Shown piece by piece: positions 7,106 to 61,432 of a DNA stretch of 64,000 nucleotides. Source of the DNA: Siphonodentalium dalli (Eukaryota; Mollusca; Scaphopoda; Gadilida; Siphonodentaliidae). Location: NCBI GenBank assembly GCA_032622095.1, contig CP136061.1, positions 187,246,369 through 187,310,368 on the forward strand. The letters are read 5' to 3'. The stretch's first letter is position 1. Each line of letters opens with the position of its first letter. The notes under the pieces were generated by a model that did not search any database, was not told where the DNA came from, and was given only the letters and a program-made list of their open reading frames with translations. A program made the translations under genes and the position numbers.

Positions 7106-7268
7106 AACTACTTCCAAAGCGAAACATCCCCTGATGCGAAATCTCACCTGACGGTTGAGTGGGTGAATCAACACGGTTGTGGGGGCAACGAAGACACGGA
7201 TCCAGCTAAACAAAACTGCAACCTTGTATTACAGTACATGTGCCAGAATGTGGATGATTACCCCCTGG
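7106..7268 (+). CDS. DD3-3-like: Copy A, first visible exon (residues 1-54 of the partial protein)
   Basis: The acceptor is TTTCAG ending at 7105 and the donor is GTAAGT at 7269. It starts in phase 0 and ends one base into a codon. The exon encodes NYFQS, then [13 protein letters not shown], then [10 protein letters not shown], a cysteine-bearing block typical of the N-terminal third of DD3-3 proteins. An upstream exon must exist, because family members have a signal peptide and a conserved NPRG-type segment before this point. I looked in 1-7105 and did not find them. Confidence 0.87.
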
Positions 7269-16200: not shown

Positions 16201-19200
16201 ATAAAATGAATATATAATATCACAAATGATTTATTGATATCCCAAAATGGGTAATAAATAGAAGAACGGCGCCCCATATGAGTCTATGCCCATGCCGATT
16301 ACATGATGCATGATGCGGAAGTTCGGTGTTTCGAAAAAAAACCCTCAAATTGTAGAGTACATTCATCTTAAATTCTGCAAAAATTATCACAACTATAAGT
16401 CTAGGCTGGACTAGTGTCTAGCACACTATGCTAATAAACAATACAATTTAATTCAATTCAATGGCTGTGAATCCGTTGAATATATGTATGTATAGTATGT
16501 ATACATCTCTCGCCGCCAATGGGTATGGAATAAAAACATAATCAGGCTCAGATCGGGGCTGCATGGTGCGTTTACGGGATTGTGTATATATTGTGCGTGA
16601 ATTCCTAACTTCCTAGATATGACATGGCGGCTAGCATTGTGTTCGTCAACATCTATGTTTTGTAAACAGATGACATTGACTCGATTAGAGATGGCTTGAA
16701 CACGGAAACGCCTCGATATACGAAACCTTCGAGGAATGAAGCGACAGAAGCAAGAATATCAAGACGGTACGCAAATATCGAAGATTTAGAACGGGGCCAA
16801 CAAGAACCCTGGGAGAACTATGACAAATGTTACATGCGAGAGCGAAATCATGGTGAGTTCAGATTCTTATTAATTTTCTTGCCCAAAACACTGTGTACCA
16901 CATAAGTGTAGCGAGCGAAGATGTTGTTTTGTAGTTTTGCCCATCGAATTTGATCAGCTACAATTCACCATTAATTAATTTATGGCGACTAATGACGATG
17001 TTTATAACGAAATTCAGGGTCATGCCATGAATCTCTACTATGGCTAACGCCCATAGAGATCATATTCCACCAGTACAGAACTTGGGAACTTTTTAAAGTT
17101 TTGACAGGGAACGTTACAAAGTCGAAAAAATAACAGGGGAATATATTCTGCATAAACGGTGAATTAATTACCCAGGAGAATTCCATATAATATAATCCTA
17201 AACGACGCAAAGCAAAATGTCTCACAAAGTCACTTATTAAATGATTAAATCGTGAACTTTTGAGTTGGGACATTCACCTAGAGTGAGTACATTATTAAGG
17301 AACAGATTAAGAAATATATTCCCCGCATTATTTTTTCGACTTTATAAGGTTCCTTGTCAAAATTTAAACAAGTTTCAAGGTTTTGTACTGATGGAATATG
17401 TTCTCTACGAGCTTTTGCCCGAGTATATATCCATGGAATGATCTAAGGCCTAATGCTCACTATTTTTGCATTATAGTCCCATTCCAGTGATCAAATAGGT
17501 GGATAAATACGTTAAAGGTTTTATAATGACTTTATATATAGAATGATATAGGATAATAAAGAGTGGTTATTATTAGTCTATTCCTTGTATGATGAAAATC
17601 AAGAGCGTTTACTTAACTTCTCTGCATGCGTGAACAACTGAAAATACCTGGAAAATTGCTATGAACTTCAGTGAACTTTGGCAAGTTTTTCAGAGTACAA
17701 CTGTACCACACAGAGTACATGCATCCATCCCAACAAAGGTAGCTTGTCGCACAGGCCCATGGGGGAAATATATATACCAATATATACTATACCAGTGACA
17801 AGGTTCACAAGTCCCACAATTTTAATATATATTGTCTCTGTATTAAGTCTCACAAACATGTTAAAATTGAATTAAGACAAAAGTCCCAAAAACCGGTAAA
17901 AGTCCCAGAACATGCTTGGTCAATTTAGAATCCCCCCCTGAGTTGTCAGGAGTTATGGCCCCCTTTTTTGCGCCATTTTTTTTAAATTTCTGTGTGATAA
18001 CATTAGTTCTGGATCTTCAGTCGCCTTGAAACTTGGTATTTTGTGGTTTAGTCACAGAAGAGGAAGTTCACAAGAACACAGTATGGAAGTCCCATAACTC
18101 TTGTCGAAGGTCCCTCAAACTCGAAGTCCCACAACTACCATTTCGTTGATCCTAGCGTCCGTCCTATGTCTGTTCGTGTCATAACTTGAACAGTATTGTG
18201 TTCGGATCTCAATGCAATTTGATATGGATGTTCATAACTATGAGGACATTCAATAGAGGGTTCAATCTTTTTGTTCGGGTTTTCTATTCTAGAGTTATTC
18301 GTCTTTGTTTATTGGGAAATGTAGGCTTTTTGGTCCATCCGGTGTCTGTTCAGGCCATAACATGAACATGCAGTATAGCGCTCGGATCTCAATGATATTT
18401 GGTATGGATGTTCAGCACTGTGATGACATTCATCGGTGTGTTCAATCGTTTTGTTTAGGTTTTTCGCTCTATAAAGTTATTCATCTTTGTTTATCTGAAA
18501 ATTCTGATGTTTGGGTCCATCTGTCTGCATGTGTATATCAGCCATATATTTTATATATATGTATACCACAAGGGGGCCTATACACCCGACGACAGTCCAT
18601 GTTTGTTCCAATTTATTTTTGCATTGAAAATGAACTAAATGACATATAATTGGCGAGTACGCACCTAGAGTGAGTACATTATTAAGGAACAGATTAAGAA
18701 ATATATTCCCCGCATTATTTTTTCGACTTTATAAGGTTCCTTGTCAAAATTTAAACAAGTTTCAAGGTTTTGTACTGATGGAATATGTTCTCTACGAGCT
18801 TTTGCCCGAGTATATATCCATGGAATGATCTAAGGCCTAATGCTCACTATTTTTGAATTATAGTCCCATTCCAGTGATCAAATAGGTGGATAAATACGTT
18901 AAAGGTTTTATAATGACTTTATATATAGAATGATATAGGATAATAAAGAGTGGTTATTATTAGTCTATTCCTTGTATGATGAAAATCAAGAGCGTTTACT
19001 TAACTTCTCTGCATGCGTGAACAACTAAAAATACCTGGAAAATTGCTATGACCTTCAGTGAACTTTGGCAAGTTTTTCAGAGTACAACTGTACCACACAG
19101 AGTACATGCATCCATCCCAACAAAGGTAGCTTGTCGCACAGGCCCATGGGGGAAATATATATACCAATATATACTATACCAGTGACAAGGTTCACAAGTC

Positions 19201-22200
19201 CCACAATTTTAATATATATTGTCTCTGTATTAAGTCTCACAAACATGTTAAAATTGAATTAAGACAAAAGTCCCAAAAACCGGTAAAAGTCCCAGAACAT
19301 GCTTGGTCAATTTAGAATCCCCCCCTGAGTTGTCAGGAGTTATGGCCCCCTTTTTTGCGCCATTTTTTTTAAATTTCTGTGTGATAACATTAGTTCTGGA
19401 TCTTCAGTCGCCTTGAAACTTGGTATTTTGTGGTTTAGTCACAGAAGAGGAAGTTCACAAGAACACAGTATGGAAGTCCCATAACTCTTGTCGAAGGTCC
19501 CTCAAACTCGAAGTCCCACAACTACCATTTCGTTGATCCTAGCGTCCGTCCTATGTCTGTTCGTGTCATAACTTGAACAGTATTGTGTTCGGATCTCAAT
19601 GCAATTTGATATGGATGTTCATAACTATGAGGACATTCAATAGAGGGTTCAATCTTTTTGTTCGGGTTTTCTATTCTAGAGTTATTCGTCTTTGTTTATT
19701 GGGAAATGTAGGCTTTTTGGTCCATCCGGTGTCTGTTCAGGCCATAACATGAACATGCAGTATAGCGCTCGGATCTCAATGATATTTGGTATGGATGTTC
19801 AGCACTATGATGACATTCATCGGTGTGTTCAATCGTTTTGTTTAGGTTTTTCGCTCTATAAAGTTATTCATCTTTGTTTATCTGAAAATTCTGATGTTTG
19901 GGTCCATCTGTCTGCATGTGTATATCAGCCATATATTATATATATATGTATACCACAAGGGGGCCTATACACCCGACGACAGTCCATGTTTGTTCCAATT
20001 TATTTTTGCATTGAAAATGAACTAAATGACATATAATTGGCGAGTACGCACTCAATATATATATATATATATATATACTGGTCGTTGATTTGGTAAGGAG
20101 GCGCCCCATGCGTGAATTATTCAAAAATCTCAATTTCAAACTATCAATTTGAAGGGGAAAATCATTTTCCTCTGTGACCGATGTATGATATAATACACTA
20201 TAGTTTACCATCTGAAATCATTACTATCTGCGAGGAAATAAATACAATATTTTTCATTGCTTATTTTAGTGGTTTGGTGGTCATTTGTAGAACTATTTTA
20301 TCATCGTGTGAAGGACCAAAAACAACATAAATATTATTCAACCACGTTTGCAATAATCTGGCAGATATAAACACTCAATACTGATTCATATTTTCAGACA
20401 TGAATGTCGTTTTGTGGTGAATTTTCCTCTAAACTCATAGTTCTGCAAATGGCTAAAAAAACAAACTATAAAATATGCAATGAAAAATGTTTGATTTGTT
20501 TTATCGCAGTTATTAATGATTTCAGATGGTAAACTGAGCGCATACACTATATACAGTAATGCTCTAAATAATCGACTCCTTAACCACAGCATAATTATGG
20601 GTAACTTTTCACGACTTAGTCGAAAATATGGCTAGCAATTTTTTCCGCAACTAAATTGAGACTTATTGAAAATTCATTCTTAAACCGGCATCAGGCGTAT
20701 TTGTCCACAGTACTACGAAGTCGCTTCGTATAATTATCTTTAATTATAAGAAGTGGAGACTTTGATTGAAATATGCGATTCATTTGGGCAGATTAACTTG
20801 AGATCTGTCGACATATGGAGACGTTTTGTATAAAAGGTTTGTTATTTTATCTACAAATATTGAGTTTGAAATCGCCGGTTTATTGCTTTTATACTCAATC
20901 GATCATAGTTATAATTTTGGGACTCAAAATGGCCACATCTGATGTTCAGGGACTATTAGTATAGTGTCTGTGTTGTGATTTCGCATTAGCAGTCACAAAA
21001 CTCTTCAATGACATTTATTTTTGTACTTTGTATCTTTTTGAGCCCAATATGTTCCTGGACTATACTCTCGTTTGTGAATTATGGTCGTTAGAAGTGAGGA
21101 TGTATTCGAAATAGCGAACTCCCTTATAACGTATATCAATATAGTGATGCGTTGTTAAAGTGTCGCACTCGTTTTAAATTTTTTTAATTTATATTTTTAC
21201 TCGATTTTTAACGACACGGCCCATGTGACTTAGCTCTGTAAAAATGAACGGATGAAACCCGTTTAATTTGGATACATATTCCCCAATGGTGGAGCGTTGA
21301 ACGGATGAAACCCGATTAATTTGGATACCCATTCCCCAATGGTGGAGCGTTGAAATACGACATGTGATATATAACTATGATAGTTTATAGGGAGCTCCAA
21401 GTTCGGCGAACTGTTCGGGTCGATATTTTAAAAATATATTATATTATGTATTATTTTATGCATTAATTATCGATCCATTATATCTCTATTTCCAAATTAC
21501 TTAGAAATAATGGGGATGTACTTGAAAATGAGCCATGTCTGTTAATGTGCTGCAGTAATGAACATGTGTTTATATGACAAAATCTTGAACGTTTTTAATC
21601 ATGAAACCTATATGTCTTGTTCCCCATATTATCTTACTGGACCAGAATAAAAAAAAAATACCACCTTTGTTCAGGGGCATATAATAATTGTCCGGATAGG
21701 CCAAAATGTTGAGTATTTGTTTTTGTGTATATCTGGGTCCGAGGTAGACAAAATATTACCCATTTATATCCATATTTGATTTTCCGGTCAGAATTGTTGA
21801 ATGGGTGAAGCGGACGAGGGTGTAACAACGGCGAGACTAATTTCTGGATTCATACATACATCGGTCGTTTTTTTTTTTTTTTTTGCTGGAAAATTATACC
21901 AGTGTACATCTTGAAGAATAATGTACTTTAACTGCGTGGGATCTGTGATTCGATGGGAGGGTTGGAACTCTTTATTGTCACGCTGCTTTCTGAACTTATA
22001 GGCCTGTTCACTGCCGACCAGAATCTACAGAAGAACAAGTTTGATTACAGCAGTGCAGTGTTTACTCGACAAAATCGAGAGGGGGACCGATACGGGTATG
22101 AATGTCCAGAAGAACGAGATTATTACCCGTACTGGCACCCGACACCATGGAAGGACATCGCCATTATGAGCCAGGATGAATCACGATGCGAGTGAGTTTA

Positions 22201-25200
22201 AAATTGATCTTTTAATACTTGGTACATGCATGAGTAAGTGAATAGATGAATAACCACTTCGATATGAGACATCATACAACTCGTAGTTGAACATAAACAA
22301 CACCACGTGGTCGTAAATTGAATTAATTCTGTCTCGTTTCCCCCTAGGTCATGCCATGAACCTCTACTAAGGCTAGTTAACGCCCGTGCGTTAGCCTTAG
22401 TCTGTTAGTAGAGGTTCATGGCATGACCTAGTTTCCCCCGTTAATTTGTAAGTAGGAAATTACATATATATCGCGACACGTACCGTGTAAGAAGTGTTTA
22501 ACTACTAAGTAACATAGCCTACCACTTACAATTAAACTAAACACATAATATATAGTGAATGGTTGGAATAAAATAACAGCTCATGTTGTCGATAATCTCT
22601 TGTGTAGGGGTGTGCTCGATTGGTTATGGGTGACTTTGGGTGTTCTCGATTGTTGGCATAGAAGCTGAATGTTGCCGATTGCACGTCGACTCTCAGTTTA
22701 AACGTAAACAAATCGATGTTAGTCCTAATAAACCGGAATATTATATGCGTAATTTAATGTGAAAGTTAGATTATTATACATCATTATTATGACCATAAAA
22801 TGTCACTCTTTCCGTATGGGAGGCCCTTTTCACATTTATTATTTATTTACGCTTAAGCGCAAATATTTGCGCTTAAGCGCAAATAACCTCTATCATTTGC
22901 GCTTAAGCGCAAATATTTGCGCTTAAGCGTAAATCATTTGCGCTTAAGCTTAAGCGCATATCATTTGTGCTTAAGCGCAAATAGATCATATTTGCGCTTA
23001 AGCGCAAATGATTTACGCTTAAGCGCAAATAAAAATTAATATTCATTGATTCCCCCCTGAATTAATTTTAAATGGCACAGGCCTAAACACATCACTCAAG
23101 TCTATATATATAGGCCCACCATATGACTCTATGAGGGAAGCAATCCCCCAGTAACTCCTAGATCCTTTTATGACATGGAAATGGTAGGCCTATAGATCTG
23201 TGCAGGATATGTCTCATTTATAAAATATACTTGATCTCTGTAATGGAGACACAAATTCTTGTGGACAGGGATGCTGATAATATGAAAATAGGGTTTTCCC
23301 CCCTATTTCAAGTCAATAAGTACACCATATGAAGGAAGCAAGCCCCTGGTAACCCCTAATTCCCTTTTTATGGCCATGGAAATGGTATATATCTGTGCAG
23401 GAGATATCCCTTTAATAAAATATACTAGAGCTCTGGGAGTGAGACACCAATTACTGGGTCACCAGGCACAGAGATGCTGATATGCATATGGAAATATGTT
23501 TTTTCTTCAACTTTGAGTCTGTATGGGGCTATTACTATGGGCCCATCATAATTTACTATGAGATGGACTCAATCATTCACAATCAGAGGGAAGTAAGGGA
23601 GTGTTAGGTATTTGCGCTTAAGCGCAAATAAAATGATAGACACATATTTGCGCTTAAGTGCAAATAAATAATAAATGTGAAAAGGGCCTCCCATATTTCC
23701 GATATATATAGCGTCAGGTATTGATTTGTTGAGTAACATCGAGTAAAATAGACGATAAATCCCGCCACCAGGTCTGGACGTAACGCCTGTTATGGGAAGG
23801 GTATCCAGACGCGGTCTCGGACGTAAACCAGCATCTCGCTATCCCAGTGTCAAAGCTGGTTTACGCACGAGCAGAACTGGACTACATTCCGCCATTTTCG
23901 AGAAAAGTATGACGTATATATGTTCCCGGTCTTGTGGCCACTGCATGCAACCAGAAGCTACTAGAATAATAATTCGGCTATATTTACTCATAACAGCGAC
24001 TACCTGTCAAACAGTTTCAATGTCCATGCTTATGGTGAATGTGTGGAGTATGAGAGCGGCGCATTCAAAGGTACATCAAGATGGAATAACGAAGCTGACT
24101 GTACAGAAGAAGGTGGAACGTGGACACTCTTCCACAACTATCTAGAGAAAGCACCACGTGAGCACATATTTGTTATGTTAATGGTGGACAAATTTGCATC
24201 TTTGTCATACATTACACAATATTAATATTGTCACGGTGTCGTGAGATTGTTCGTGTAGCGACACTGCAACAAAGAGTTATTCGAGAATCATCCCCATACA
24301 CTCCTCACCCCGGTCACCCGATATTCTCCATGCTGATTGCTCAACATTAACTAACACTCGAAAGTGTTAATTTGATATCAGAATCAAAGTCTAAAATAGG
24401 GGAGAAGTACCTTGCCCGTCACGGATATTGTAACTTCGACACAACTTGACATATCTGGGGGTGCGGTGGGGGGGGGGGGGGGTGAATGCATATATACAGT
24501 CGTGCGTAGCTGTCAAAATACCAGACAAACTCATGGTCAAACGAAGTATGCCAAACGCAGTATCATCTCAATTCATATAACTTCCATGCAGACCGTGAAC
24601 TTATATTACCCCGGCTGTGGATTATTTTGGTGATATGATTGTAGATAAATGTTAGCAGCAGAAAAAAATATAACCAATATGTATAACGGTTCTTATATTT
24701 ATACCACCACCCCATGAATGTTCTAACCAAACTATACGAATTGCATTATACTTCGGAAAGACAATTGGTTCCCTGTCATACGAGCCAACTCGTCAGGTAT
24801 CCGTGGGCATAACGAATACGATTCCGTGGAACGTATATGCTTGTATATATATAACTTATAAGGCACACTTTTTCCCTTTCCGAAAGGAACACAGTGTGCC
24901 TTATACATACAAGCATTTATACGTGTAAGTATGTTCTTATTGTAAGATTACAGATATTTTAGGTTTTAAATTAGACCACCAGTTTTCAAAAATACTCCAA
25001 AAGGTTTCTAACTTGAACATATCAGTTTTCAGTACGAATAATAAGTGGGGTTTTTTTTACATAACAATGCATTTCCTTTATTTTCAAAGGCCATGCCGGT
25101 TATACTTAGAATTTACGGACGCATATCTGATCATAGATCAACCATAGCATCCATGTTGGATTAAGAGTCAGATATATATGGGGCAGCGGGGTTATTTTCA

Positions 25201-28200
25201 ATTTCAATTTTGGTATTGGTCGGTAACCGGAATGCTTGTACATGTAACTAACAGTATACCTTATTCTCAGAATACACGACTGAAACTGAATGTGAGCAAG
25301 CTAACGTGGACTATGCATCTCAGGGAATCAGATTCATTTACGAGGTGCCATACAATTCCTCCACACCAGATCAGAAAGAATGCCTCGTCGCCCTGAATGC
25401 ACCAGAGTGTTTCCCTGCCCCATGGTCAAGGTTAGTGTGCGTTGCATGGTGTTGATTCAAGTGCTTCTTTATTTAATACTAAAGCGATAAACCCAATTTG
25501 AGCGAATTGGACAGAATTGGTCAAAATTTGCGTCATGCTTATTCGAATCTTATATTAAAATGTGTGGTCGCAACGAAGTGCTATCCATGTTGTAATATGT
25601 GTGGGGCCACATATCATACATAATATAATGATTAGATTTCTATATATGGAGTCATGGTTGATGTTGCAAATTATATGGGAAATTACATAAGTGCCCATGG
25701 GGGCTCTACTTTTCAATGTCAATCGTGCTTAGAGTATTATATAAGATCACCCTAAATAGTTGTCCATTCACCAATGGTGTTGCAACTTGACTCGAAATTT
25801 TGTATTGCTTGCTATGGGACAAATCTCAGTTTTGCCCATGTTCAGCCTTCTGCTGGTCCACCTCCGTTATTGAAAAAGGCTTATAGCCAATTCCAACCGC
25901 GAACTGTTTATATGGGTCCAAGAGAAGCACTGTGGAGGATCCGCTCCTCGAAATCTCATTCCGTGAAGATTATTATACCTTAGAAACAAATCCTAACACT
26001 CGAAAGTGTCATCCAATGAGTTGCTCCCTCGATATACACCAATTAGTAAACATGGTGGTGGAAAATCGAGCAAAACGTTCGCGGAATCAGAACTTATATA
26101 CCGCTCGGAATGGGAATTTTGCTCGGGCGGAATGAGATTTCGAGGAGCATATCCTCATACAGTGAAGAGAAGGAATGCTTGTGTTGTATGCTCTGATACA
26201 CGAAGTAGACTAGTATATATATATATATGATACCGTTACCGCTACCAATAATGTTCGTTCTTTGCAACGAAACAAGTCATAATATTATGGTCTCTTGTAT
26301 AATCTGGTTGTCATCTCAGATTATACCCGGATAACTTGATAATCAGAATGTTCGTAACAATTAATGTTGAGCCTATATAAATAGATGACGTCACATCGAT
26401 GCTTACCCGATAACTACACTACAACACACGACAAAGCAGCATGGTGCGATATTTTACCTTTCCACTCATCGTTTCAGGAACAACCATCTTGGCAACGGGA
26501 TGAATGCGGAGCCAAATAACTACACATGGGTTTTACCGTTCTTTCCATCGTTAAAACCACAGCGATGTGTCCTCAGAATGAGGTAGGTATTGAGATATCT
26601 CAAATTCATTGTCTGGATCAGAAAATAAACAGGCAATCATTGTACTATGCCACTTAGAGCGACAGCTGGATAGCTGTCTAACAGCAATGCAGGGTAGAGG
26701 GTCTCCGTTAGGGGTGTCCACCTTGGGAAATTCCAACTACAGCCCCCCCCCCCCCCCTGAATCAGAATCAGACCAAACACAAGTTTTGCATAATTCCATT
26801 TGCATTTTGCAACCCCTTGCACTTCAGTGCTCAGGCCTAATATCCTATATATTCATAAACCATGGTATATATTCCCGGTATGAGAACATTAATATATTTT
26901 AACCTGAAAAATTACATAAATCCTAACATCTAGTGGTCTAACTCCCGCAGACAAATGCACACGACTACGGGCAAATACCATGACACACCGGGCTGACCAT
27001 GGTTATTCGGCCCGGTGTGAGAACATTTTGAAAACTATCCAAGAAAATCGCAAATCCTAGTATCTAGACTGGCCTCAACTGAAGCTTTCCTATTGTTGGA
27101 AATTTCAAACCTCATACTCCCCCTCAGTTTGGAAAATTTTCCAAATGATAACCATTTCACTCCACAAGTTCGACCAAATGTAGTAAAATATTATTTTGTT
27201 AAACTAATTAGCAGTTTTGTATTGCCCATGGGGGAGGGACAATGACACACCGGGCGGACCATGGTTCAGCCCAGTGTGCGAAAATTTTGAAATCTGAACA
27301 AGCAAATTGCAAAATCCTAGCATCTAGACTAGCCTCAAGCATTCCTAGAGTTGGAAATTTGCCACCTGTCACCCCCCCCCATAAGGTTGGAAAATTTCCA
27401 ACTGATGACCAATTTAGTCCAAAATTTTGACAAAAAATAGGAAAATATGCAAATATTGGTACAAAAACAATTAATTCCCCCAATAAATTGTTTGAAAATC
27501 AAACTACAAGAACATTTTCAACCTATTGTTGGTGTAAAATTTCCAACTAATGATTTGGCAGGTATGAAATTTCCAATTGTTGAAAATTTTGACCAAAGTT
27601 GGGGGGGGGGGTGAGACACCCCAACCCCTCCCCCTGTCGCCACGTCTCTGCCTCATTGGTGTGAAATTCCAGACACAAAATCACGAACATTGAACATTTG
27701 GTTACTTTTCGCCCACAAAATGTAAATTATTTGTATTTACAGACAGGAGTTCCAATCAGCTTTGTAATCTTTTACCAAATTGACGGCAGTTATAAGTACT
27801 CATCTCGAGAACATAAGAATTTTCAAAAATCTGATCGGATTGTTGTTGTTGGAATCTGTTGAGATGGGGACCCTCTTTACGGGTTGAGTACCTTTAATGA
27901 GATAGAACTTATGGTCATATTCAATGAAGGTTTTGACGGTCAGACTTTGACCAAGCCTTCTCTGTCCACAACAGCTTGGTGTATCGGTTCATGTGGTTTT
28001 GTACCGCGTCCCACCCGTATACTCTTCTATAACTGACTTTATACTCCCAGAATCGTGGGCAGGAGTATGTCTTCGGATTAGGTCAGATGGAAGCTTGGCA
28101 TATATGAACAGAGGGCAGCCTTACCTGGTGATATCAAACATGCACATATCAGAGGACCGTTAAAATGTAAAAAAAAAAGAGATCTAGAAGTAAACAAAGC

Positions 28201-34854: not shown

Positions 34855-34885
<31 letters not shown>

Positions 34886-49065: not shown

Positions 49066-49219
49066 ACAGTAATGCCCTAAATAATGGGACTCCTTAACCA
49101 CAGCAGAATTAGTGAGAGCTTTCTGATGAATGGCAACAAGCCATATTTCTGACTAAATCCTGAAAAATTACCCATAAATCTGCTGTAGTTAAGGAGTCCA
49201 TTATTTAGGGCATTACTGT
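49066..49219. mobile_element. Palindromic MITE (ACAGTAATGCCC family)
   Basis: The ends are ACAGTAATGCCCTAAATAAT and TTTAGGGCATTACTGT. The left arm is shortened, jumping from ACCACAGCAGAATTAG to GAGCTTTCTGATGAATGGC. It lies about 0.46 kb downstream of the copy B stop. Confidence 0.82.
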
Positions 49220-49682: not shown

Positions 49683-50072
49683 TCATATCTGACTCTGCAT
49701 GGATAGCTTCCCTTTCCTCACATTAGTCCGCAAGGCTTGCCACTGACCTGGATGTCGACGGAAATAGACGACAGTTCCGACAATGACAACAACAATCACA
49801 ATGCACATGATAGTAATTCCAACAATTAGGCCAACATTTTGGCTCGCTCTAGCAACATAGAGTCCACCACTATTAACTGCAAAATTGGCTTGACCATCCT
49901 GAATACTGGCACTTATCCGTGTCCATGTGTCGAAATTTGGTCCAGACGAACGATACATTTCAACATTGTGGGCATCAGAATCAACATGCATGGATACAGT
50001 AAATTCCTTTTCTTCAGAAAGCTTGCTTTGTGGTGATATGATAAGGTATTTGCTTGCATAAGAATCTCCCAC
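49683..50072 (-). CDS. DD3-3-like: Copy B, terminal exon with transmembrane helix
   Basis: The acceptor is TTCTAG just above 50072 and the stop TGA is at 49683-49685. The exon encodes 129 residues: [14 protein letters not shown], a beta-rich-looking segment with [17 protein letters not shown] and [12 protein letters not shown], then a hydrophobic helix of about 25 residues beginning [10 protein letters not shown], then a basic cytoplasmic tail starting YFRRHPGQW. The helix followed by FRRHP fits a type I membrane anchor. Confidence 0.92.
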   Translation of the reverse strand: MGDSYASKYLIISPQSKLSEEKEFTVSMHVDSDAHNVEMYRSSGPNFDTWTRISASIQDGQANFAVNSGGLYVARASQNVGLIVGITIMCIVIVVVIVGTVVYFRRHPGQWQALRTNVRKGKLSMQSQI

Positions 50073-53000
50073 CTAGAATAAACAGGAACATCTATTTAAT
50101 GTTTGTTTAGTTACAGTAATGCCCTAAATAATCGACTCCTTAACCACAGCAGAATTATGGGTAATTTTTCAGGAATTAGTCGGAAATATGGCTTGTTGCC
50201 AATCATTGGAAAATTCTGCTGTGGTTAAGGAGTCGATTATTTAGGGAATTAGTGTAGCTTTTTACTTTAACATCATTTTAGCTGCTAGGTCAAATCACGG
50301 CAAGAAAGACGGGATCAGAGAAAACTATTAATTTCAATTTCTAATGTAATATTATGATGTACAAATTTGTGCAAATTATTGACATAAATAATATTTACAC
50401 TATTAAAATTTTACTCGGCAATATTTTTTAAGTTGGAAAGGAAACTGGTGTTCTAAAACTATGTGATACAGAATATTTACAAGGAATACAGTTAGTTGCA
50501 GTGTGTGTCATTACAATTGAAGCACTGGTATATCAACGAGAGACCAATCATGATTGGTAGATGTTTAACCCATACCTTCAACCATACCACCTTGAAATCA
50601 GAGATCTAGAACTTAATATACAACTGTACACATAATGTGGATAAGATTGAACAGATATATTGTGGGAGGGGGTCCATCATTTACTTGGGTAATGGATATG
50701 TTTAAATATGGTATTGATCATATAAAGTATTGCTTTGAATAGCATGTGCTCATGTCATGGTTATGGGAAGGGTTAATATGTTCAAAACCAATCAATAGAT
50801 ACCAAAACATTTACTATATATGGGTAAGACTGTGTCATGATTAACCTGGATGTGATTATGAGAGTGATCAGGTGAAAAATAGTTATCACATTGTGTCAAA
50901 GGAATAGGTGGACAGGGTTAATATTTTTAAGCAAATCAACCTAATGACCCTCACTATACAGGTCATGGATATATCATCATAAACTGTGCCATGAAATATA
51001 AATACAGTCAATTAAAAATACTTTAGTTATCAAATCAGTTAATATGGGGTTAATCTTACTTAATTATTTCAACACTAATCATATGGTGGGATTATACCCC
51101 AGTATGCACTTGAATGTTTCATATATACAACACTAACATTTCATAACCCACAACATAGACAGCAGAGCCCAATGCAGACACATAAATATGTCTGGCACTA
51201 CAGCAGTATAGCTCTACCAGTAGTTTATTTATTGACTTTTAACTTCTCAGATCTGGCAAAATTAAAAACTAGGATGTGTACAACTATGTTTGCATATGAA
51301 CACTAATAAATAACTTTAGATATTCAATCAACAACCTAATTTGCTATGGCACATGGTGACAGCAATGGTAGACTAAATGAGCAGCAATTTACAGAAAAGA
51401 TAATTGGCAAGCTTACATATGTGTTTACATCTCACTCCAAAATCAACAGAATATTAAAGGCCCACTTAATTTTCGATTCACTGAATATTTTTTTATAGTG
51501 CCTTGATATACGGTTTTAATAACAATCTATGATTATAACTCGCCAATCAGACCTCGACCAATGGAAGTTATCTAATGAGGTCTGGTGACCGACCTTTATT
51601 TACTGTAAAGATCTTTAAGTCGTCGCCTGTTCTATCAAACGGTCTGTTGTGATTACAATAGGCCTGTGTATTGTATTCGCCGCATACACCTTGATAACCA
51701 ATTATGCACTCCCGATAATTCAAACAGATGATTTGTCCGCCGAGGTGAGCATTACTAATATGGTAAGAGAAACTCGCCACTGATTTTAAATTTCTCGGGC
51801 TGATTAGGTGTTATAAATATGTTATAAACATGGCGTCCAATTTATAAGCGAAATAAACACTACGCGCGCCCTCTGGGCGCTTGTGATCTTTATTTCGCTT
51901 ATAAATCGGATGCTGTGCTTATAACGTATATTTAAAATACTATAATTCATCACCATGTGGAACGTCTGTGTCTCGGAAGGTACCCATAGAGTAATATAAA
52001 TTAGCTGAAATCATAAAATCATTTCCCCCGTTATGATCCCAGAATGCAACAGAATTCAAACTGCAATTTATTTTCAATGGAAGGGTAATAACTCTATATC
52101 TAAATATATAGAGTTATTCCCCTTCCAGTGAAAATAATACAGTTTGTGTAGAAACTTGAGCACAGAACAGACGTATTTATCTCAACAAAAAACAACATGT
52201 TCGCAGTATATTACATTGAATAAGTTGAAAATACAATGTTTTGGAGCTTCCTCTTTCAAATGGTATATAATATGGCATATAATTTCCATAATGTGATCTT
52301 GGCATACTTAGGTATTGTGTGGAGATCATCAGCAGATAATAATTCAACTAACACTGAATCACATCTCTCTCCACTCACATAGAATATTATAGACTGTCGA
52401 TTATTGAAGTGTGAAATGCCATATACATAGCCAATCTAAACCTTGCTATATTGTCCAATTCATTACAGATATAGTGAGATTTGTTTAATTTGTTACTCAG
52501 AATGGAAAAATGTATACATAGTGCATAATGGATAGACAAAATGATGTTAGTACATGGTGGTGAGTGGGAGAAGTAAGTCTTGCCTCACAGTTTTGTATCT
52601 ATTTACTCACACTCATTTCCTTGTCAGCAGCTTTAAGCAGCTCCTCCCCCTGGCTTTGTGACATCACTTCTACCTTGATTATCTCAAGCTTCTCAAATGT
52701 GTCCTTATTTATTCGTATCTGTGCTTCACTGGAATTAGATCACGTTTCACGTTTTATTGAGCAATAGCAAAGGACAATGGTGGCCGACACATATATAACA
52801 ACAGTCTGACAATTTAAAACAAAACTGATCACAATACAGTGAGTAATTGGATCATAATAATCGTCTTGATGTATTGAGCTAATTGTATTTAACATTTTCA
52901 TGATGTGAGCTGTGCTGGTGCAGCATTAAATATCCTGTGCCAGTGCATTCTCTTATATATGCAAGTCTGCCATAGGGAGCATCGCATATGTCAGAGGATG

Positions 53001-56000
53001 CACTTACTTAGATATTGTTGGGCCAATACATTTTCTTATATATGTGAGGCTACCTTTGGGATTATGATTATTTTTCCGCAAAATGTTTCACTGGTGGTCA
53101 GTGTTAGCTTGCAAAAAAAATATCTTTGTATATTATAGTGGGAGATAGACAGGTGGTGCTGGCATTAATCTGTGGATTAGTTATACAGTCAACTGAAACT
53201 TTCCTCCAAATGATTGAACAGGAATCCAACGTCTTTTTTATGTCTTGTTTTAAAAAAAAACATGCATCTCTCATTCTCTCTAAATGAACAACAGACTATT
53301 CCAATGTATAATTTATAACTGAACTTGTAAATCCATTTAGTAATGAAAGGGTGTCTGACCTAGATCTAATATAACACATCTAGTGGTGGATGGGATGCAA
53401 GCAGCAGCACATACCTGTGTGGACTTGTTATATTTCCTCCCATTCTGCCGACAGCCACATACTGTGATGGGTACGGGTAGACCAGTACCCTTCCTTTCTG
53501 ATCTCGATTGGAGAAATTGTTGTTTCTGGTGCACATATAATGATATGTACCCACAGATGTGACCTTGCGAAGACCCAAATCGAAGTATGTTCCTGCATCA
53601 TCTAACTCAGACATCTCTCCTCTAAATTGACCTGACAAATATGGTGAATGAATGATAACACATGACCCATGAATTTTAACATTTTCTTTCTAAATACTCA
53701 TTGACGAGTAGTTCCTTTATATTAGGAAATGTTGCGCATCAGTCATTTTGTTGAACTTATTATGTGAACATTTCCCTCCAATAAATATGACTACTTCTGT
53801 ATTATCTGTGATCTGCTTATTTTTCCTGAAAACCCCTCCTGCTGAATAAGAGTCTATTCCAGTGTATACTTTAATAACGTAGGTGGAGAATCTATTTAGT
53901 ATAGAAAAGGTAAATGCTACATGTTCGTAACTTCATTTGCAAAAAGTCATTTGTGATGTCAGTAAAGATTTTAATACAAAATAGATATGGTAGAATGACA
54001 CAAGTGAGTGAACTGTATAACGTTATTGCGCGAGTTTGTTGTGATGTGACCTCGCGACATGACAAACACATGTAATATCTAGTTTAACAGTTCAGACCAC
54101 TGTGTCATATGTTTATTGAACACCCCAGAGACTGTGGATTGTAGAATTCTAATTGATGTTGGAATTATCTTATTTACTTGAACCATTCGGCTCTTAGTTC
54201 CCTTATTTACATAGAAAATAATTAACTTTTTGTTTTTAACGTCACAATGCGTTTTAAATAGTTATTCAAATAGTGAGTTTAGTACTGTACTATCACTATT
54301 TTCTGAATGCGGAATTGTTTTGTTTTCTGTTGTTCCCATCGTTTCCTTAAGTTCTGTTCTGAGTTCATATAGTTCATTCAGTTCTTTTTTTGAACACTCT
54401 CTGTTGAAATACACCTAATGGTGTCCATCGACTGTATATATACCCCCTTTTAAAAAAAAGGGGGTATACTGTTTGGCACCTGCCTGTCCAGCCATGCATG
54501 TGTCCGTCCGTCCGATGTCTCTTCATGTCATAACTTTAACAGTAGTGCTCAGATCTCAATGAAATTTGGTATGGATGTTCACTACCACGAGGACATTAAA
54601 TAGAGGGTTCCATCGTTTTGTTCGGTTTTTTCCGTTCTAAAGTTATTCATCTTTGTTTATCAGGAAATGTTGGCTCTTTGGTCCGTTCGATGTCTGTTCA
54701 GGTCATAACTTGAACAGTAGTCCTCAGATCTCAATGAAATTTTGTAAGGATGTTCACTACTATGGGGACATTCAATAGAGGATTCAATTGTTTTGATCGG
54801 GTTTTAAGTAAGTAATGCTTTATTCTCAGCCAGTATACATGGTCCATTCTAGAGTTATTCGTCTTTGTTTATCTGGAAATGTTGGCGTTTTGGTCCATCT
54901 GATGTTTGTTCAGTGTTCAGGCCATAACTTGAACAGTAATGCTCGGATCTCAATGAAATTTGGTATGGATGTTCACCACTATTTATTAGTATTTTCCAAT
55001 CTTCTATATTGCCTTCCAGAGTCAGGTGTAAAAAAGAAAATTCTCTTCAAACCTTTCTTTAGTAAATACTCATTGATGAGTAGTTCCCGTAGGACATTTT
55101 CAGACACAAAGTTCAATAAACACCCATTGGCCATTGTTGAACTTATTATCTGAACATTACCCACCAATGAATATGAATCCCTCTGCACTTGTATTATCTA
55201 TTTTTCTGTCAGTCGTCTGCTTTTATTACCTGAGCATACCTCCAGATGAATAATAGAATATTTCAAAGTATACATTTATAACTGAATGAGAGATTCCAAT
55301 TAGTAAGGAAAGGGTTAAATTAAGCTGAATAATTCAGTTCACAAGCTGACAAAATGCTAGTGTTCAAATATGCAGACTATATAGATTTCACTTTTTATTC
55401 ATCAGTAGTTTCATTAATTACCTGGGGTGAGTATGGCAAGATGCTTCAAATCATCCTTAGAGAATCCAACGAAATCTGCACTATTGATGTGCGATGGGTA
55501 GTTGTTCCCATAATGGCCGTACTCATCCCCTGGTCCATAGTTTGTTCCATTCCCCTCTGGATACACAGGTCCTCTCAGCAGGGCAATGTTATTTCTGTCA
55601 GTTCCAGCCAGTCCCTGTCCATCATTATTACGTGGGTTGGTGTTTGAACCTGTCCATCTGGTTTAAGATAAATCCAATTGTTGTGACAGAGAAATGAGCT
55701 TTTTTATAATATATTAATAGAGTAAGAGACAATTGGCACTAATAATCTTCTAATACACAAATGTTGGTTGTCTGCATTAAAATCTGTATTTGAGACAATA
55801 ATTAAATGGAAGTAATTTATGGACTATTATTCGCAATTGTGAATGTCACAAATAAACCTGAGTAATACTGCATGGGGCTCGCCGGGACCTTTATAAATCA
55901 TTTCTTTCATTATTTTACCATAGATAATATCATGAATCAGTACTCTGGTCTCAGGCGTAGCCAGAGTAGAGATTCATGGTATGATCTAGATTTCACCACA

Positions 56001-59000
56001 CTTTTCAGAATCTTACATTGTGGTGAAGGTGGTAAATAGTAATATTTAGTGAATAAAACCGAAAAGTTATTATCCAACACTAGTACTATCTCCAGTGGAG
56101 GAATGTAGAAATCAACTAAAATTGTCGAAAATTCCAACCACATCATCTACCATTTCAGAGAACACAGTGTTTGAACTAAAGACAAATGTAAATATTTACT
56201 ACTTTATTTGGGACAATGATTCGTCCAACAATAGTCACTTTCTGTACCTTGTTTTATTTTTATAACAATGATGTTGTTATCTACTTATTTGGATATGAAA
56301 TTTATGATAATAACTTATTTTGGCATGATTATTTATTATTCATTTCATAACATCTCAGAGGAGAGTTTCACATCACTGTAATAAAGATTATTACCACTTT
56401 AGAGGGCGTTCTCTAGCAGATTAACAGTATTTTACCCGCACAATAAGATTCCATAATTTTCAGGCGAAGTTGACCAGAAGCGGGCGTTAATGAAGCTTTG
56501 TGTTCATTAACGCCCGTCGCCCGCTTCCAGTTAAGTCACCGATCACGTGATCACACGAGGACAGAGTGGTAATAATATAATAACCTGATTTTGCTCCAGG
56601 AATGATTAACAGCCCTCGGGCCTATTATCGGCCATCGACTGCGTCTCGGCCTCTAATAGGCTCTCGGGCTGTTAATCATACCTATCGGGCTGTTAATAAA
56701 CCATAACGCCCTCAAAAATCATGTTATTGGTATATTGTATCACTCTTAAAAGATATATACCACTGTAATATTCTGTTAAGATAAATTTCTATTTATATTA
56801 AATGTTAAATTATCTTCCCACACATTGCAGAATCAGGTTCTGTGTATTAACCCTTAGATTTCACTCGATGGGAATATATAGGCCGAAATAGAATATCTCC
56901 CAGGGGGGGGGGGGGGGGGGGGGGGGGGGGTGAATCCCGGGAGTTGAGAAATCCCATTGTAAAAGTTTTATTGATTTTTCTACTAAGCTACAAAGCTTCT
57001 TCATGATAAATTCCGAAGTGACTTGATCGGTTGAGATTGTAGATTGGTTACTGCTGCCAGTGTAACTGGTGCTGTAGTGGAGGTGCGGATGTGATATTAT
57101 ATATGTGATATTATATAACACGGTTCATATCAGTGAGTGATGATGAGATGATTTATAAACTGGATCTTTACGGTAACTTACTGTATATGCACATAGTCTC
57201 CTGGTGAAGCCTCCATTGTATTTGGAACAAAATCATACTCAACAGCTGGGTAGACCTGGACAATGTTTCCTCTCTTCCCCCGCACATTGAGATTATAAAT
57301 TGGAGCCCCTTTTACGTCATATGGCCTTCTCACTATTGAAAATGTATGTGACCTGAAATAAACATGCATTTATTGCCCACTGATTATTTAATAATGAACA
57401 GGATAATCACATAAAGACTTATTACAAAACTAGAGGTTACCCTGAGGATCCATGAAGATTAGTGATGATCGGATAAGAGATGTAGCCTGTAGGTTGTGAC
57501 GAAGGATATAGTCATGCAAAGAGTAAAACTCGAGATGGCTGCTGGCGGCCATGTTTTAAAAGAAATTTCAGGAACAAATTTATGTCTCCAATCTAGTGGT
57601 CACCCAAAGATCCATATGAAGTTTGGTGATGATTGGAAGAGGGATGTGGTCTGTTGGGTGTGCCAAAGGATTTAATCATTATTAAATTTCACCAAGAAAG
57701 ATGACATCAATATTTCCAAAAACAACATCAATTGGATATGAACATTAGACATAAATTCATACATAAACTTGATTTTTATGTCTGTGTAACTTTTCTAATG
57801 AAATACCCTTTCTGCTATCCTGAATAATCCAATTCAGATTTAGAGTGAATTGTGATACTCTCAAATTCTCAACAATGCTATCAGTTATGTTAAACTGATT
57901 CAGTAACAAACAATCGGTTGTACCTCAGGGGCTGGCATATAGCTATGGTTCCAAATTGACATGTGGGCAGGATGGAATTGCAGGGAAAATGCAGACATTA
58001 CCAATACTTCATTAAATAAGGCCTTGTGATGGTAAATATCCACATCACATTTTATTCAGATCCGATAATCCATGGCTGAGATGCTTTGGTGGACGGACAA
58101 AAAATAATTATTTCTAGGACAACAAAGAAGCATAACTCTAGAAGAGAAAATGCAATAATTTTTAAAGTCATTTGACCCCCTTTTGAAAGCACTCCCAATG
58201 GCAAACATCCATACCAAATTTCATTGAGATCTGATGAACCATGGCTGAGATATCTGTGCAGACTGCGGATGGACAACAAACAAGGAATTCCAGACAGAAG
58301 AAGGATAAGTCTAGAATGGAAACATGAACAATGTCATGGACCCCTCTGGTCATAAAGGTTAGAGCCTCCAAACCAAATTTCTTTCAGTTCTGATAACCCA
58401 TGCCAGAGAAACAGTATGTAAAGCATGTGTGATAAGGAAAACTCTCAACACCGTGGGGATGTTTTTGGGAGAATGAATCACGGTGGCCCACCCAACAACG
58501 AAAGCTTGAGTGGAGAGGATTAGCAAGGGGTTACTGTGTAATTAGTACGGTTCTTTACACCTCACTACAAACCACCACGTTATCACCAGCATTCGCTGGC
58601 ATTCACCACAAAACTCATATATACGCAATGGGAAACGCATTGCATTTTCTACAATTGTCTTTTTTATTTGTTTTCATTAAACCTTTTGAAAAAAAGGCAA
58701 CATAATAATGTATAATAATATATTTACATGTATATACAAACTAGCTGAAACAGGCTAATGTTAAATGGCCCCCTTTATTATTGTGCCTCCTTTGAGCGCT
58801 TTGTGCACATTTTGATCTGTTAAACATCTTGGCATGTTGACTAAAAAAAAATATTTAAAAAAGATAATAATTATTGTTTTTTTCACATTAAACTCCTTGC
58901 TTAAGTTAAAGGCAATTGGTGTATGAAGGTCCAAATTACGATCGCACATTTGTTACATAGTGGCCCAGTTGCTCAGAATGGTGCATACTATTCGGCCTGA

Positions 59001-61432
59001 AATAAAATCTAAACATTTAATAAATAAAGCATACATGTAAAACAGGTTGCTTTCATCAACTTTGCGAAAATCCACAATCATCCTCCTTAAGTAAATAATA
59101 TGTGGAAAATAATCAAGAAGCTCATAACCGAGAGTGTTCTTAACCCTCTAAGAGCTCTTTCCATCAATGTATCACATTATTATAATCAATAAATTTGAAT
59201 GAAATTGTCAATGACACTGTAGCTCAACTTGGAAAGGGAACAATTTAATGTATTACAGTCAATGGAGCGATTAGGAATGTGGAAAGTTGAATGTTTAATA
59301 CTAGTTTATAGACATGAAGAGAAAACTAAAATCCAAGATGGCTGCTGGCGGCCATGATTTCGGCCGAATGACCCCAAAATGACTCATTCCCATCTACATG
59401 TCATTATTAACATTCATGACAAATTTTATGATGATCAGACTAAAGGTACGACATGTAGCCCGTGCTAAAGCATTTAGTCATACAAAGAGTAAAATCCAAG
59501 ATGGCTGCTGGCGGCCATGTTTTTGGCCGAATGACCCCAAAATGAGTCGTTCCCATCTACATGTCATCGTTAACATCCATGACAAATTTTATGACGATCA
59601 GAGTAAAGGTACGACCTGTAGCCCATGCTAAAGAATTTAGTCATACAAAGAGTAAAATCCAAGATGGCTGCTGGCGGCCATGTTTTTTGGCCAAATGACC
59701 CCAAAATTACTCGTTCCCTTCTACATGTCAATATTAACATCCATGACAAATTTCATGATGATCAGACGAACAGTACGAACTGTGGCCCGTGCTAATGGAT
59801 TAAATTTTTAAATGCAAGATGGCTGCTGGCGGCCATGTTTTTTGTCCAAATGACCCCAAAATGACTCGTTCCCATCTACATTCCAATTTCAACAGTCATG
59901 ACAAATTTTATGATGATCAGACTAAATGTACGACCTGTAGCCCGTGCTAAAGGATTTAGTCATACAAAGAGTAAAATCCAAGATGGCTGCTGGCAGCCAT
60001 GTTTTTTGACCGAATGACCGCAAAATGACTCGTTCCCATCTACATGTCATTATTAACATTCATGACAAATTTTTATGATGATCAGACTAAAGGTACGAAC
60101 TGCAGCCCGTGCTAAAGAATTTAGTCATACAAAGAGTAAAATCCAAAGATGGCTGCTGGCGGCCATGTTTTTTGGCCGAATAACCCCAAAATTACACGTT
60201 CCCATCTACATGTCAATATTATCATCCATGACAAATTTCATGATGATCAGATGAACACTACGACCTGTGGCCCGTGCTAATGGATTAAATTTTGAAATCC
60301 AAGATGGCCGCTGGTGGCCATGTTTTTTGTCCGAATGACCCCAAAATGACTCGTTCCCATCTACATTCCAATTTCAACAGCCATGACAAATTTTATGATG
60401 ATCAGACTAAATGTACGACCTGTAGCCCGTGCTAAAGGATTTAGTCATACAAAGAGTAAAATCCAAGATGGCTGCTGGCAGCCATGTTTTTTGACCGAAT
60501 GACCCCAAAATGACTCGTTCCCATCTACATGTCATTATTAACATTCATGAAAATTTTTATGATGATCAGATGTACGAACTGCAGCCCGTGCTAAAGAATT
60601 TAGTCATACAAAGAGTAAAATCCAAGATGGCTGCTGGCGGCCATGTTTTTTGGCCGAATAACCCCAAAATTACACGTTCCCATCTACATGTCAATATTAT
60701 CATCCATGACAAATTTCATGATGATCAGATGAACAGTACGACCTGTGGCCCGTGCTAATGGATTAAATTTTGAAATCCAAGATGGCCGCTGGTGGCCATG
60801 TTTTTTGTCCGAATGACCCCAAAATGACTCGTTCCCATCTACATTCCAATTTCAACAGCCATGACAAATTATATGATGATCAGACTAAAGGTACGACCTG
60901 TAGCCCGTGCTAAAGGATTTAGTCATACAAAGAGTAAAATCCAAGATGGCTGCTGGTGGCCATGTTTTTTGGCCGAATGACCCCAAAATAAAACTTGACA
61001 TGACAGTTATATTAGAATGGTTTAAAAATATGAAATGATAATTAAAAGAACAAATTATTTAAGTTGATAAATTTATAAATAATTTTAGCAAATTTACGCA
61101 CCATAAAGGCCTTATGACCCTTTGAAATAACTTATAAAATGACTCTGAAAATTATTTAGTCCAGTAGTATATAAATTCTAATGAATTACCTGTCCTGGAA
61201 TGTGCGTCCATACTGTGCCGTGTTAATTGCGAGTTCCAAGTCAAAGTCATCACCATCAAAAGGTTTTACTTCAGGATTGTTTTCAAAAACATATCCCCTG
61301 TCATCGGCAGACTGACCAGAGGGAAATGTATATTTCTGTGACAGATCAATCTTTGATGGGCGATTTCTTCTCTCACTGTTAAAGCTAGCATTTGTGTTCC
61401 ACCCATCATAGTCATTTGTAGAGATATTGTAT
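49683..61432 (-). CDS. DD3-3-like: DD3-3-like protein, copy B, membrane-anchored (5'-partial, 6 exons)
   Basis: Exons in transcript order are 61190-61432, 57182-57352, 55422-55657, 53415-53631, 52611-52728 and 49683-50072. All introns are GT-AG and all phases join; 1375 nt, entering one base short of a codon end, with a single stop at the end. It starts at the RYNIST block, so the N-terminal half must be encoded beyond 64000. Shared blocks are [49 protein letters not shown] and [16 protein letters not shown]. After these it carries about 160 extra residues: a mixed polar domain, one hydrophobic helix ([18 protein letters not shown]..) and a basic cytoplasmic tail. It should be a type I membrane protein with the DD3-3 region outside the cell. 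It converges on copy A, tail to tail. Confidence 0.91.
50113..50255. mobile_element. Palindromic MITE in copy B last intron
   Basis: ACAGTAATGCCCTAAATAAT to TTAGGGAATTAGTGT, with a shortened right arm. It starts only 41 bases upstream (transcript sense) of the last acceptor, so it lies where the branch point would be expected. Confidence 0.8.
50256..51456. other. Copy B last intron; no feature recognised
   Basis: AT-rich sequence without clear repeats or coding signal on either strand. Confidence 0.4.
51457..52310. mobile_element. Second TAAAGGCCCACTTAATTTT element, split by an insert
   Basis: The left end and the central palindrome (GGAAGGGTAATAACTCTATA / TATAGAGTTATTCCCCTTCC) match 45182-45654. 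About 400 bp are inserted at 51533-51936. The right end is missing after TAATGTGATCTTGG, so this copy is truncated. Confidence 0.7.
51533..51936. mobile_element. Insert within the second TIR element
   Basis: This sequence is absent from the intact relative. It has a strong hairpin (TTATAAGCGAAATAAA at 51843 opposite TTTATTTCGCTTATAA at 51890) around a GC-rich CGCGCGCCCTCTGGGCGC loop. On the minus strand 51568-51780 encodes 70 residues with five cysteines ([20 protein letters not shown]); it looks protein-like but I do not recognise it. Confidence 0.4.
52611..52728 (-). CDS. DD3-3-like: Copy B, linker exon
   Basis: The acceptor is TTCCAG just above 52728 and the donor GTGAGT just below 52611; it is 118 nt long. 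It encodes [40 protein letters not shown]. The composition is charged and probably extracellular. Phase 2 in and phase 0 out fit both neighbouring exons exactly. There is no counterpart in copy A. Confidence 0.85.
52905..53060. repeat. Relative of the 44.96-45.12 kb repeat
   Basis: TGCCAGTGCATTCTCTTATA, GGGAGCATCGCATATGTCAG and GGGCCAATACATTTTCTTAT are shared with that locus. It lies in the intron between the linker exon and the YMCTRNN exon of copy B. Confidence 0.5.
53415..53631 (-). CDS. DD3-3-like: Copy B, YMCTRNN exon
   Basis: The acceptor is GTCAG just above 53631 and the donor GTATGT just below 53415. It encodes [20 protein letters not shown], then [31 protein letters not shown] and a tail ending GGNITSPHR. 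Copy A terminates just after the homologous QKG motif, so everything after VYP here is specific to copy B. The [11 protein letters not shown] block resembles the GTYxYxC ligand loop of cupredoxins (inference). Confidence 0.93.
53679..53911. mobile_element. AACCCTTTC-family repeat, diverged copy
   Basis: TTTCTTTCTAAATACTCATTG at the left, AATCTATTTAGTATAGAAAA at the right, and TTGTTGAACTTATTATGTGAAC inside, as in 55050-55317. Another partial copy is just downstream of the YMCTRNN exon at 53270-53352. Confidence 0.55.
54439..54980 (+). mobile_element. Core-repeat element starting with TATACCCCCTTT hairpin
   Basis: TATACCCCCTTT (54439) pairs with AAAGGGGGTATA (54457). GTCCGTCCGTCCGATGTCTC follows, then three units of ATCTCAATGAAATTT(G/T)GTA(T/A)GGATGTTCAC at about 54550, 54728 and 54947. 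The same core lies at 18.2-18.5 and 19.6-19.9 kb. Confidence 0.65.
55050..55317. mobile_element. AACCCTTTC-family repeat
   Basis: AAACCTTTCTTTAGTAAATA to AATTAGTAAGGAAAGGGTT, 268 bp, same layout as 45985-46258 but diverged. It abuts the core-repeat element just before it. Confidence 0.65.
55422..55657 (-). CDS. DD3-3-like: Copy B, WTGSNT exon
   Basis: The acceptor is AACCAG just above 55657 and the donor GTAATT just below 55422. It encodes [40 protein letters not shown], a Tyr/Gly-rich stretch ([14 protein letters not shown]), and a segment ending HLAILTPG. The glycine-rich loop is shorter than in copy A, and the following part is not obviously alignable to copy A exon 10. Confidence 0.9.
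55931..55990. repeat. Short palindrome of the TCATGAATC..GATTCATGG family
   Basis: ATATCATGAATCAGTACTCT and AGAGTAGAGATTCATGGTAT flank GGTCTCAGGCGTAGCC. It is the same end sequence as at 17028 and 22336 and can be read as a minimal element. Confidence 0.6.
56395..56715. mobile_element. GC-richer MITE with two hairpins
   Basis: GAGGGCGTT near 56404 and AACGCCCTC near 56705 form short inverted ends. Inside are GAAGCGGGCGTTAATGAAGC opposite TTCATTAACGCCCGTCGCCC, and ATTAACAGCCCTCGGGCCTA opposite TAGGCTCTCGGGCTGTTAAT. No ORF. Confidence 0.55.
56902..56930. repeat. Poly-G tract of almost 30 bases
   Basis: An uninterrupted G run in copy B intron (read as C on the transcript). Length is likely unreliable in sequencing. 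Shorter G or C runs are at 14188, 24466, 26744, 48180 and 62652. Confidence 0.9.
57182..57352 (-). CDS. DD3-3-like: Copy B, exon with [11 protein letters not shown] core
   Basis: The acceptor is TTTCAG just above 57352 and the donor GTAAGT just below 57182. It encodes [44 protein letters not shown] and GDYVHIQ. The core is nearly identical to copy A exon 8, while the flanks differ. The next intron falls between VHIQ and WTG. Confidence 0.93.
57420..57680. repeat. AAGATGGCTGCTGG-family fragment
   Basis: GAGATGGCTGCTGGCGGCCA, ATTTATGTCTCCAATCTAGT, GTTTGGTGATGATTGGAAGA and CCAAAGGATTTAATCAT, about one and a half units of the family. It begins 68 bases beyond the acceptor end of the 57182-57352 exon, upstream in the transcript. 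Confidence 0.65.
58030..58400. repeat. Tandem core repeats, about 150 bp
   Basis: Three units sharing TCCATGGCTGAGAT / ACCATGGCTGAGATATCT and CATACCAAATTTCATTGAGA with GGACGGACAAAAAATAATTA-like links. Related in phrase and spacing to 48670-49000. Confidence 0.6.
59225..60995. repeat. 11-copy tandem array with three-unit higher-order period
   Basis: Each unit contains CCAAGATGGCTGCTGGCGGC; starts are at 59333, 59496, 59659, 59814, 59978, 60143, 60299, 60463, 60622, 60777 and 60941, so the period is 155-165 bp. Every third unit (59814, 60299, 60777) is a distinct type with ATGGATTAAATTTT in place of the ATTTAGTCATACAAAGAGTA phrase. This gives a higher-order period of about 480 bp. The small + strand ORFs are repeat artefacts. 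Confidence 0.92.
61190..61432 (-). CDS. DD3-3-like: Copy B, first visible exon
   Basis: On the minus strand the acceptor is CCTGCAG just above 61432 and the donor GTAATT just below 61190. It encodes [17 protein letters not shown], a long variable insert with Lys/Asp/Pro, then [17 protein letters not shown]. Copy A splits this stretch over two exons; here it is a single 243-nt exon with a longer variable part. The 5'-most codon is split, so at least one more exon precedes it; none was found up to 64000. Confidence 0.92.

Follow-up and report, generated by a model that had tools for sequence, protein, structure and literature searches.

Tail-to-tail paralogues in a scaphopod genome, most likely DD3-3-like, one with a C-terminal membrane anchor and one whose main chain lacks it

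DD3-3 of Dictyostelium (DDB_G0283095) is the namesake of a protein family to which, judging by their motifs, two neighbouring genes of the scaphopod mollusk Siphonodentalium dalli presumably belong. The genes, here called copy A and copy B, lie in a stretch of 64,000 bases (GenBank assembly GCA_032622095.1, contig CP136061.1, positions 187,246,369 to 187,310,368 of the forward strand). This whole stretch is referred to as the window, and positions are counted from its first base. The two are old paralogues that have diverged, and the family behind them is most likely that of the DD3-3-like cell-surface proteins of invertebrates. Copy B carries a C-terminal membrane anchor, and the main chain of copy A has none.

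Dictyostelium DD3-3 serves as an example of proteins with one transmembrane segment (PMC10022678), and its knockout is cited as showing faster aggregation and compromised cyclic AMP (cAMP) signalling (PMC6208332). HrSMLP1 of the ascidian Halocynthia roretzi is described as a DD3-3-like glycoprotein with a calculated mass of 73.8 kDa and a signal sequence. It is reported as a plasma-membrane protein of haemocytes, has been proposed as a self-marker, and is encoded by a single gene with seven exons; a domain similar to the fibronectin type III (FNIII) domain of Ihog has also been reported (PMC6916515). The main text of that paper nowhere uses the word "transmembrane". According to the same source, DD3-3-like relatives range from Cnidaria to Chordata and are absent from vertebrates, and at least 2 such proteins are present in 9 of the 14 species in the tree legend besides H. 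roretzi, including Crassostrea gigas (PMC6916515, Fig. 3c). Near-consecutive accessions in some of the listed species suggest neighbouring genes. A sponge relative was up 3 h after microbial patterns were given (PMC6208332). In three further papers, as far as their accessible text goes, DD3-3 is named only within gene or protein lists (PMC8495957, PMC9441076, PMC12960093).

The window contains no N bases, and its guanine-cytosine content lies between 34 and 42% in 4-kb steps. Its long introns, spliced genes and repeats are indicative of a eukaryote. Exon chains were read outward from paralogous stop-to-stop frames on the two strands. Among the matches listed, the frame at 34843-35244 (+) is paired with those at 57181-57369 (-) and 61189-61506 (-), and the frame at 42165-42386 (+) with that at 53369-53689 (-). 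Copy A, on the forward strand from 7106 to 42389, consists of 11 exons that form one spliced frame of 586 residues. Copy B, on the reverse strand from 61432 to 49683, consists of 6 exons with 457 residues. The copies are convergent, and their 3' ends are separated by 7.3 kb. The exons are as follows.

7106..7268, forward strand: copy A, exon 1 within the window; open frame, acceptor tttcag, donor GTAAGT, phase 1 out; NYFQSE...CGGNEDT
16670..16852, forward strand: copy A, exon 2
22002..22191, forward strand: copy A, exon 3; LFTADQNLQ
23997..24157, forward strand: copy A, exon 4
25271..25430, forward strand: copy A, exon 5
26478..26582, forward strand: copy A, exon 6
31523..31585, forward strand: copy A, exon 7; YNISTDDYD; the earliest exon with a copy B counterpart, preceded by an intron whose position is common to both copies
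34890..35185, forward strand: copy A, exon 8; VHIQWTG; the most conserved block
38063..38134, forward strand: copy A, exon 9; phase 1 out
39350..39521, forward strand: copy A, exon 10
42194..42389, forward strand: copy A, last exon; ends in TAA, with AATAAA 78 nucleotides past the stop
61190..61432, reverse strand: copy B, exon 1 within the window; YNISTNDYD
57182..57352, reverse strand: copy B, exon 2; SHTF...VHI
55422..55657, reverse strand: copy B, exon 3
53415..53631, reverse strand: copy B, exon 4
52611..52728, reverse strand: copy B, exon 5; opens the juxtamembrane region, which has no copy A counterpart
49683..50072, reverse strand: copy B, last exon; strand-rich juxtamembrane region, transmembrane helix, basic tail and TGA

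All 15 internal junctions (10 in copy A, 5 in copy B) have GT-AG introns and fitting phases. Spliced copy A is open over 586 codons with a single, terminal stop, and its other two frames contain 16 and 45 stops; spliced copy B is likewise open over 457 codons to a single terminal stop, with 44 and 17 stops in the other frames. When aligned, 109 of 290 residues are identical (38%; expectation value, E, 5e-44), and the shared blocks include the TRNN-F-NR-QKG motif. The first-pass annotation, made from the letters alone, had proposed two paralogous exon chains lying tail to tail; this layout is borne out, and its positions 7106, 42387 and 61432 are exact. It had also called the chains complete and in frame. 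They are in frame, but not complete, as both begin at a splice acceptor. No third copy was found in the window by tblastn with both proteins, matches outside the exons having E of 1.4 or worse. ARAGORN predicted no transfer RNA gene in the window, and at gathering scores no Rfam family matched it.

The copies differ at their 3' ends. Copy A ends in QKGSLTVTE, right after the TRNN-F-NR-QKG motif, with TAA at 42387-42389 and the AATAAA hexamer at 42467. A stop at this point, just after the final conserved motif, had been noted before and was confirmed. Copy B runs 190 residues beyond the last shared residue (457 minus 267), rather than the roughly 160 given earlier; the single transmembrane helix and basic tail described for this extension were both found. 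The highest mean Kyte-Doolittle hydropathy of a 19-mer is 3.32 at the copy B C-terminus, and the maximum in copy A is 0.89. When the last exon of copy B was modelled alone with AlphaFold, a helix was predicted at residues 79-106; the mean predicted local distance difference test (pLDDT) over residues 81 to 110, taken ten at a time, was 84, 96 and 90. Five strands preceding the helix were placed at low confidence. A Foldseek search with this exon returned 361 matches with E of 10 or less, of which none reached 0.001 or better. Copy A exon 8, also modelled alone, had a mean pLDDT of 37 and was uninformative. A cupredoxin-like fold of the conserved core was considered but is not claimed here.

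Sequence downstream of copy A was considered as a source of a missed anchor. By eye, no continuation resembling copy B is present in any of the three frames of the 240 bases after the copy A stop. Between 42390 and 49682 on the forward strand, a scan in any phase found no candidate anchor exon with an acceptor score of at least 7 or at least 5, 1 with a score of at least 3 and 4 rows with a score of at least 0. On this scale the 17 mapped acceptors score from 7.1 to 14.2, and the last exon of copy B was recovered as a positive control. Together with the hydropathy values, the scan upholds the earlier statement that one copy is anchored and the other ends before an anchor. In an assembly or haplotype artefact, the real 3' exons of copy A would be misplaced or absent from the record. 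Such an error would find some ground in the repeat-rich character of the locus, where the final intron of copy A contains an array of some 51 copies and two of its other introns contain tandem duplications that are nearly identical. However, the last exon of copy A lies past this array and has a stop followed by a polyadenylation signal, and the window is free of N bases. An artefact of this kind is considered very unlikely.

Within the part shared by the two copies, which holds 5 introns in copy A and 4 in copy B, a single intron, the one immediately ahead of YNIST, agrees in both position and phase. The introns at copy A residues 342, 441, 465 and 522 have no counterpart in copy B, and those at copy B residues 81, 138 and 217 have none in copy A. 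The phases of the intron at 522 in copy A and at 217 in copy B differ, and the stretch around them is poorly aligned. It can also be seen that the content of the copy A exon at 34890-35185 is spread over three exons of copy B (61432-55422), and that elsewhere copy A splits what copy B keeps whole. Because so few intron positions are common to both copies, the duplication is judged to be old. Over 106 well-aligned codons picked from conserved blocks, the proportion of nonsynonymous differences (pN) is 0.26 and that of synonymous differences (pS) is 0.88, which is past saturation. Amino-acid constraint between the copies is indicated by these values. Since it lacks the anchor and juxtamembrane region of copy B, copy A might still be regarded as a pseudogene in decay whose 3' part is gone. 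This constraint speaks against decay, as does a frame that stays open through all 11 exons, with introns of the GT-AG type, and ends in a clean stop with a polyadenylation signal after it. We consider a pseudogene very improbable.

The relatives described so far may themselves differ in anchoring. Dictyostelium DD3-3 is taken to be single-pass and copy B is likewise, judging from its hydrophobic 19-mer and helix model, whereas the main chain of copy A is not. Copy A, still lacking its N-terminus, has a molecular mass of 66.8 kDa. Copy B in the window has no equivalent of the first 321 residues of copy A, and the sum of copy B and these residues is 88.6 kDa; the 73.8 kDa of HrSMLP1 is therefore nearer to partial copy A than to this sum. 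In contrast to the single gene and seven exons of HrSMLP1, no fewer than 11 exons make up copy A, and a paralogue adjoins it. As regards the reported Ihog FNIII-like domain, the segment of copy B before the anchor is strand-rich at low AlphaFold confidence, and Foldseek gave no match at E 0.001 or better. By analogy with HrSMLP1, an anchorless member may be a type already known, and such a member could nonetheless be located at the plasma membrane. Potential N-glycosylation sequons number 4 in copy A and 5 in copy B, although they are common by chance and hence weak as evidence.

Taken as a whole, the explanation that we consider probable is that of diverged paralogues, in which copy B is tethered and the main product of copy A is anchorless, being either released or peripheral. 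Copy B would be a single-pass glycoprotein, of type I given a signal peptide, with the conserved module leading into some 115 strand-rich residues and then into the membrane helix. The terminal exon of copy A ends after the last conserved motif and is followed by a polyadenylation signal, which would give a main product without a C-terminal anchor. This product may be released, or may be held at the surface solely by binding other molecules. As proposed for relatives, such glycosylated surface proteins are likely to act in contact between cells or in immune recognition. It is common for a C-terminal anchor to be gained or lost once a gene has been duplicated. The difference in anchoring most likely reflects ordinary divergence between two old paralogues, in a family that has received little study.

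The first-pass annotation had gone further and suggested a soluble and a tethered version of the same extracellular module, as in ligand/receptor or decoy pairs. The "same module" is overstated for two copies with 38% identity and one common intron position, and the pair itself finds no support beyond the layout. For a ligand/receptor or decoy/receptor pair made from one locus, one may point to convergent neighbours of which one is anchored and the other apparently not, and to the conservation of the shared motifs. The identity of 38% and the single coinciding intron position speak against it, since they reflect an old duplication, and the part of copy B that would match the first 321 residues of copy A lies outside the window. 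Moreover, the available parts of the literature naming DD3-3 describe no neighbouring anchored and anchorless members and no such pair, and none of the general literature on soluble and membrane paralogues in mollusks concerned this family by title among the matches listed. A functional pair is considered very improbable.

Divergence of the paralogues is not the only way in which the locus could yield tethered and free products, as one intron of copy A holds a candidate for an anchor exon of its own.

38496..38602 (alternative start 38499), forward strand: intron 9 of copy A, candidate for an alternative terminal exon; 34 residues and then a stop, phase 1

Copy A would in this case exist in two forms made by splicing, an anchorless main form and a shorter tethered form ending in the candidate. 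Exon 9 leaves in phase 1, and in this phase the candidate is open, encodes some 20 residues of transmembrane-like character with a mean hydropathy of 2.97, and carries a stop. Its acceptor scores 7.1, equal to the weakest mapped acceptor, or 3.3 if the start is at 38499. It is the sole in-phase candidate at an acceptor score of at least 7 in the 10 introns of copy A (33,523 bases). Resampled sets, which were first-order Markov sequences drawn from the dinucleotides of each intron and not exact shuffles, rarely yielded its like. A hydropathy of at least 2.9 with an acceptor score of at least 7 occurred in any copy A intron in 2 of 1000 sets, and in intron 9 in 0 of 1000. In smaller runs, in which observed and resampled sequences alike had to encode 22 residues or more and to reach a stop within 120 codons, a hydropathy limit of 2.5 gave 8/300 sets for any copy A intron and 3/300 for intron 9. 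The corresponding counts were 66/300 and 5/300 at a limit of 1.9, and 27/300 and 3/300 with an acceptor score of 3 and a hydropathy of 2.5. As the candidate was spotted by eye and the limits were set afterwards, these counts are not clean probabilities.

Several features of the candidate speak against two forms of copy A. Lowering the acceptor score to 5 adds three weaker in-phase candidates in copy A introns, at 7741, 17950 and 19337 (hydropathy 2.07-2.23), and also one in a copy B intron, at 58345 (hydropathy 2.02), so that stretches of this kind are not unique. The 34 residues have no Pfam match. The rest of intron 9 contains no AATAAA, the nearest alternative being ATTAAA 41 nucleotides after the candidate stop. 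Furthermore, use of the candidate would delete the terminal part of the conserved core (GTDRHN...TRNN-QKG), and a working short product is less likely because of this loss. Two spliced forms of copy A are accordingly thought unlikely. Less likely again is the wider claim that copy A switches its anchoring by splicing, so that one locus would have arrived at tethered and free versions independently through a paralogue and through splicing, in a family linked to self/non-self contact.

Returning to the diverged paralogues with a tethered copy B and an anchorless copy A, a number of observations weigh against this explanation. First, no sequence match supports the name DD3-3. In Pfam, copy A had no match up to E 5, and copy B had two at the anchor with E of 0.11 and 0.29, under the cut-offs. 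Only chance-level matches were obtained in IMG/VR (for the A/B alignment and its parts), GTDB genomes, phages, NCBIfam, PHROGs (copy A only) and PDB sequences. Second, the in-phase candidate anchor exon in intron 9 is rarer than chance. Third, HrSMLP1, the relative nearer to copy A in size, is reported from the plasma membrane (PMC6916515), and because of this location a missing anchor need not mean release. Fourth, neither AATAAA nor ATTAAA was found within 1.5 kb past the copy B stop. Fifth, the 5' ends of both copies are missing from the window, and no signal peptide was seen for either. The 17-residue N-terminal peptide of HrSMLP1 has no convincing match in the window. The best local scores of this mature N-terminus were 28 upstream of copy A and 26 upstream of copy B, which are noise because 31 was reached elsewhere in the window on the reverse strand; the 5' exons of both copies probably lie beyond its limits. 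We infer expression of both copies, together with a signal peptide and an extracellular location for copy A.

Repeats are abundant in and between the genes. In intron 1 of copy A, a tandem duplication at 12605-13582 has a unit of 485 and is 99.6% identical over 494 bases, and inverted repeat arms about 4 kb apart (10058-11032 and 15057-16192) have three main pieces of 86-92% identity and are perhaps a transposon. Intron 2 contains a direct tandem duplication of 1390 bases at 17275-20051 that is 99.6% identical, and either very recent or an assembly effect. The array of some 51 copies mentioned above is a 33-base minisatellite at 39541-41234. Two further minisatellite arrays, at 29453-29807 and 30398-30673, have related units in inverted orientation. 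A tandem array at 46743-47925 has a unit of 161 bases, also listed at 485, and another in intron 1 of copy B (59327-60989) is listed at 319 and also at 485; a basic unit near 160 is suggested for both. Additionally, a small repeat family resembling miniature inverted-repeat transposable elements occurs in both orientations, in introns and between the genes, at 35932-36099, 42802-42970, 43213-43427, 49065-49219 and 50113-50256.

The DD3-3-like family is reported to be widespread in invertebrates, and copies A and B match no Pfam entry above cut-off. Neighbouring copies that differ in anchoring provide a simple experimental handle, and the candidate exon in the intron of copy A is a precise point that can be tested with RNA. 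For relatives, links have been drawn to allorecognition in an ascidian and to the response to microbes in a sponge.

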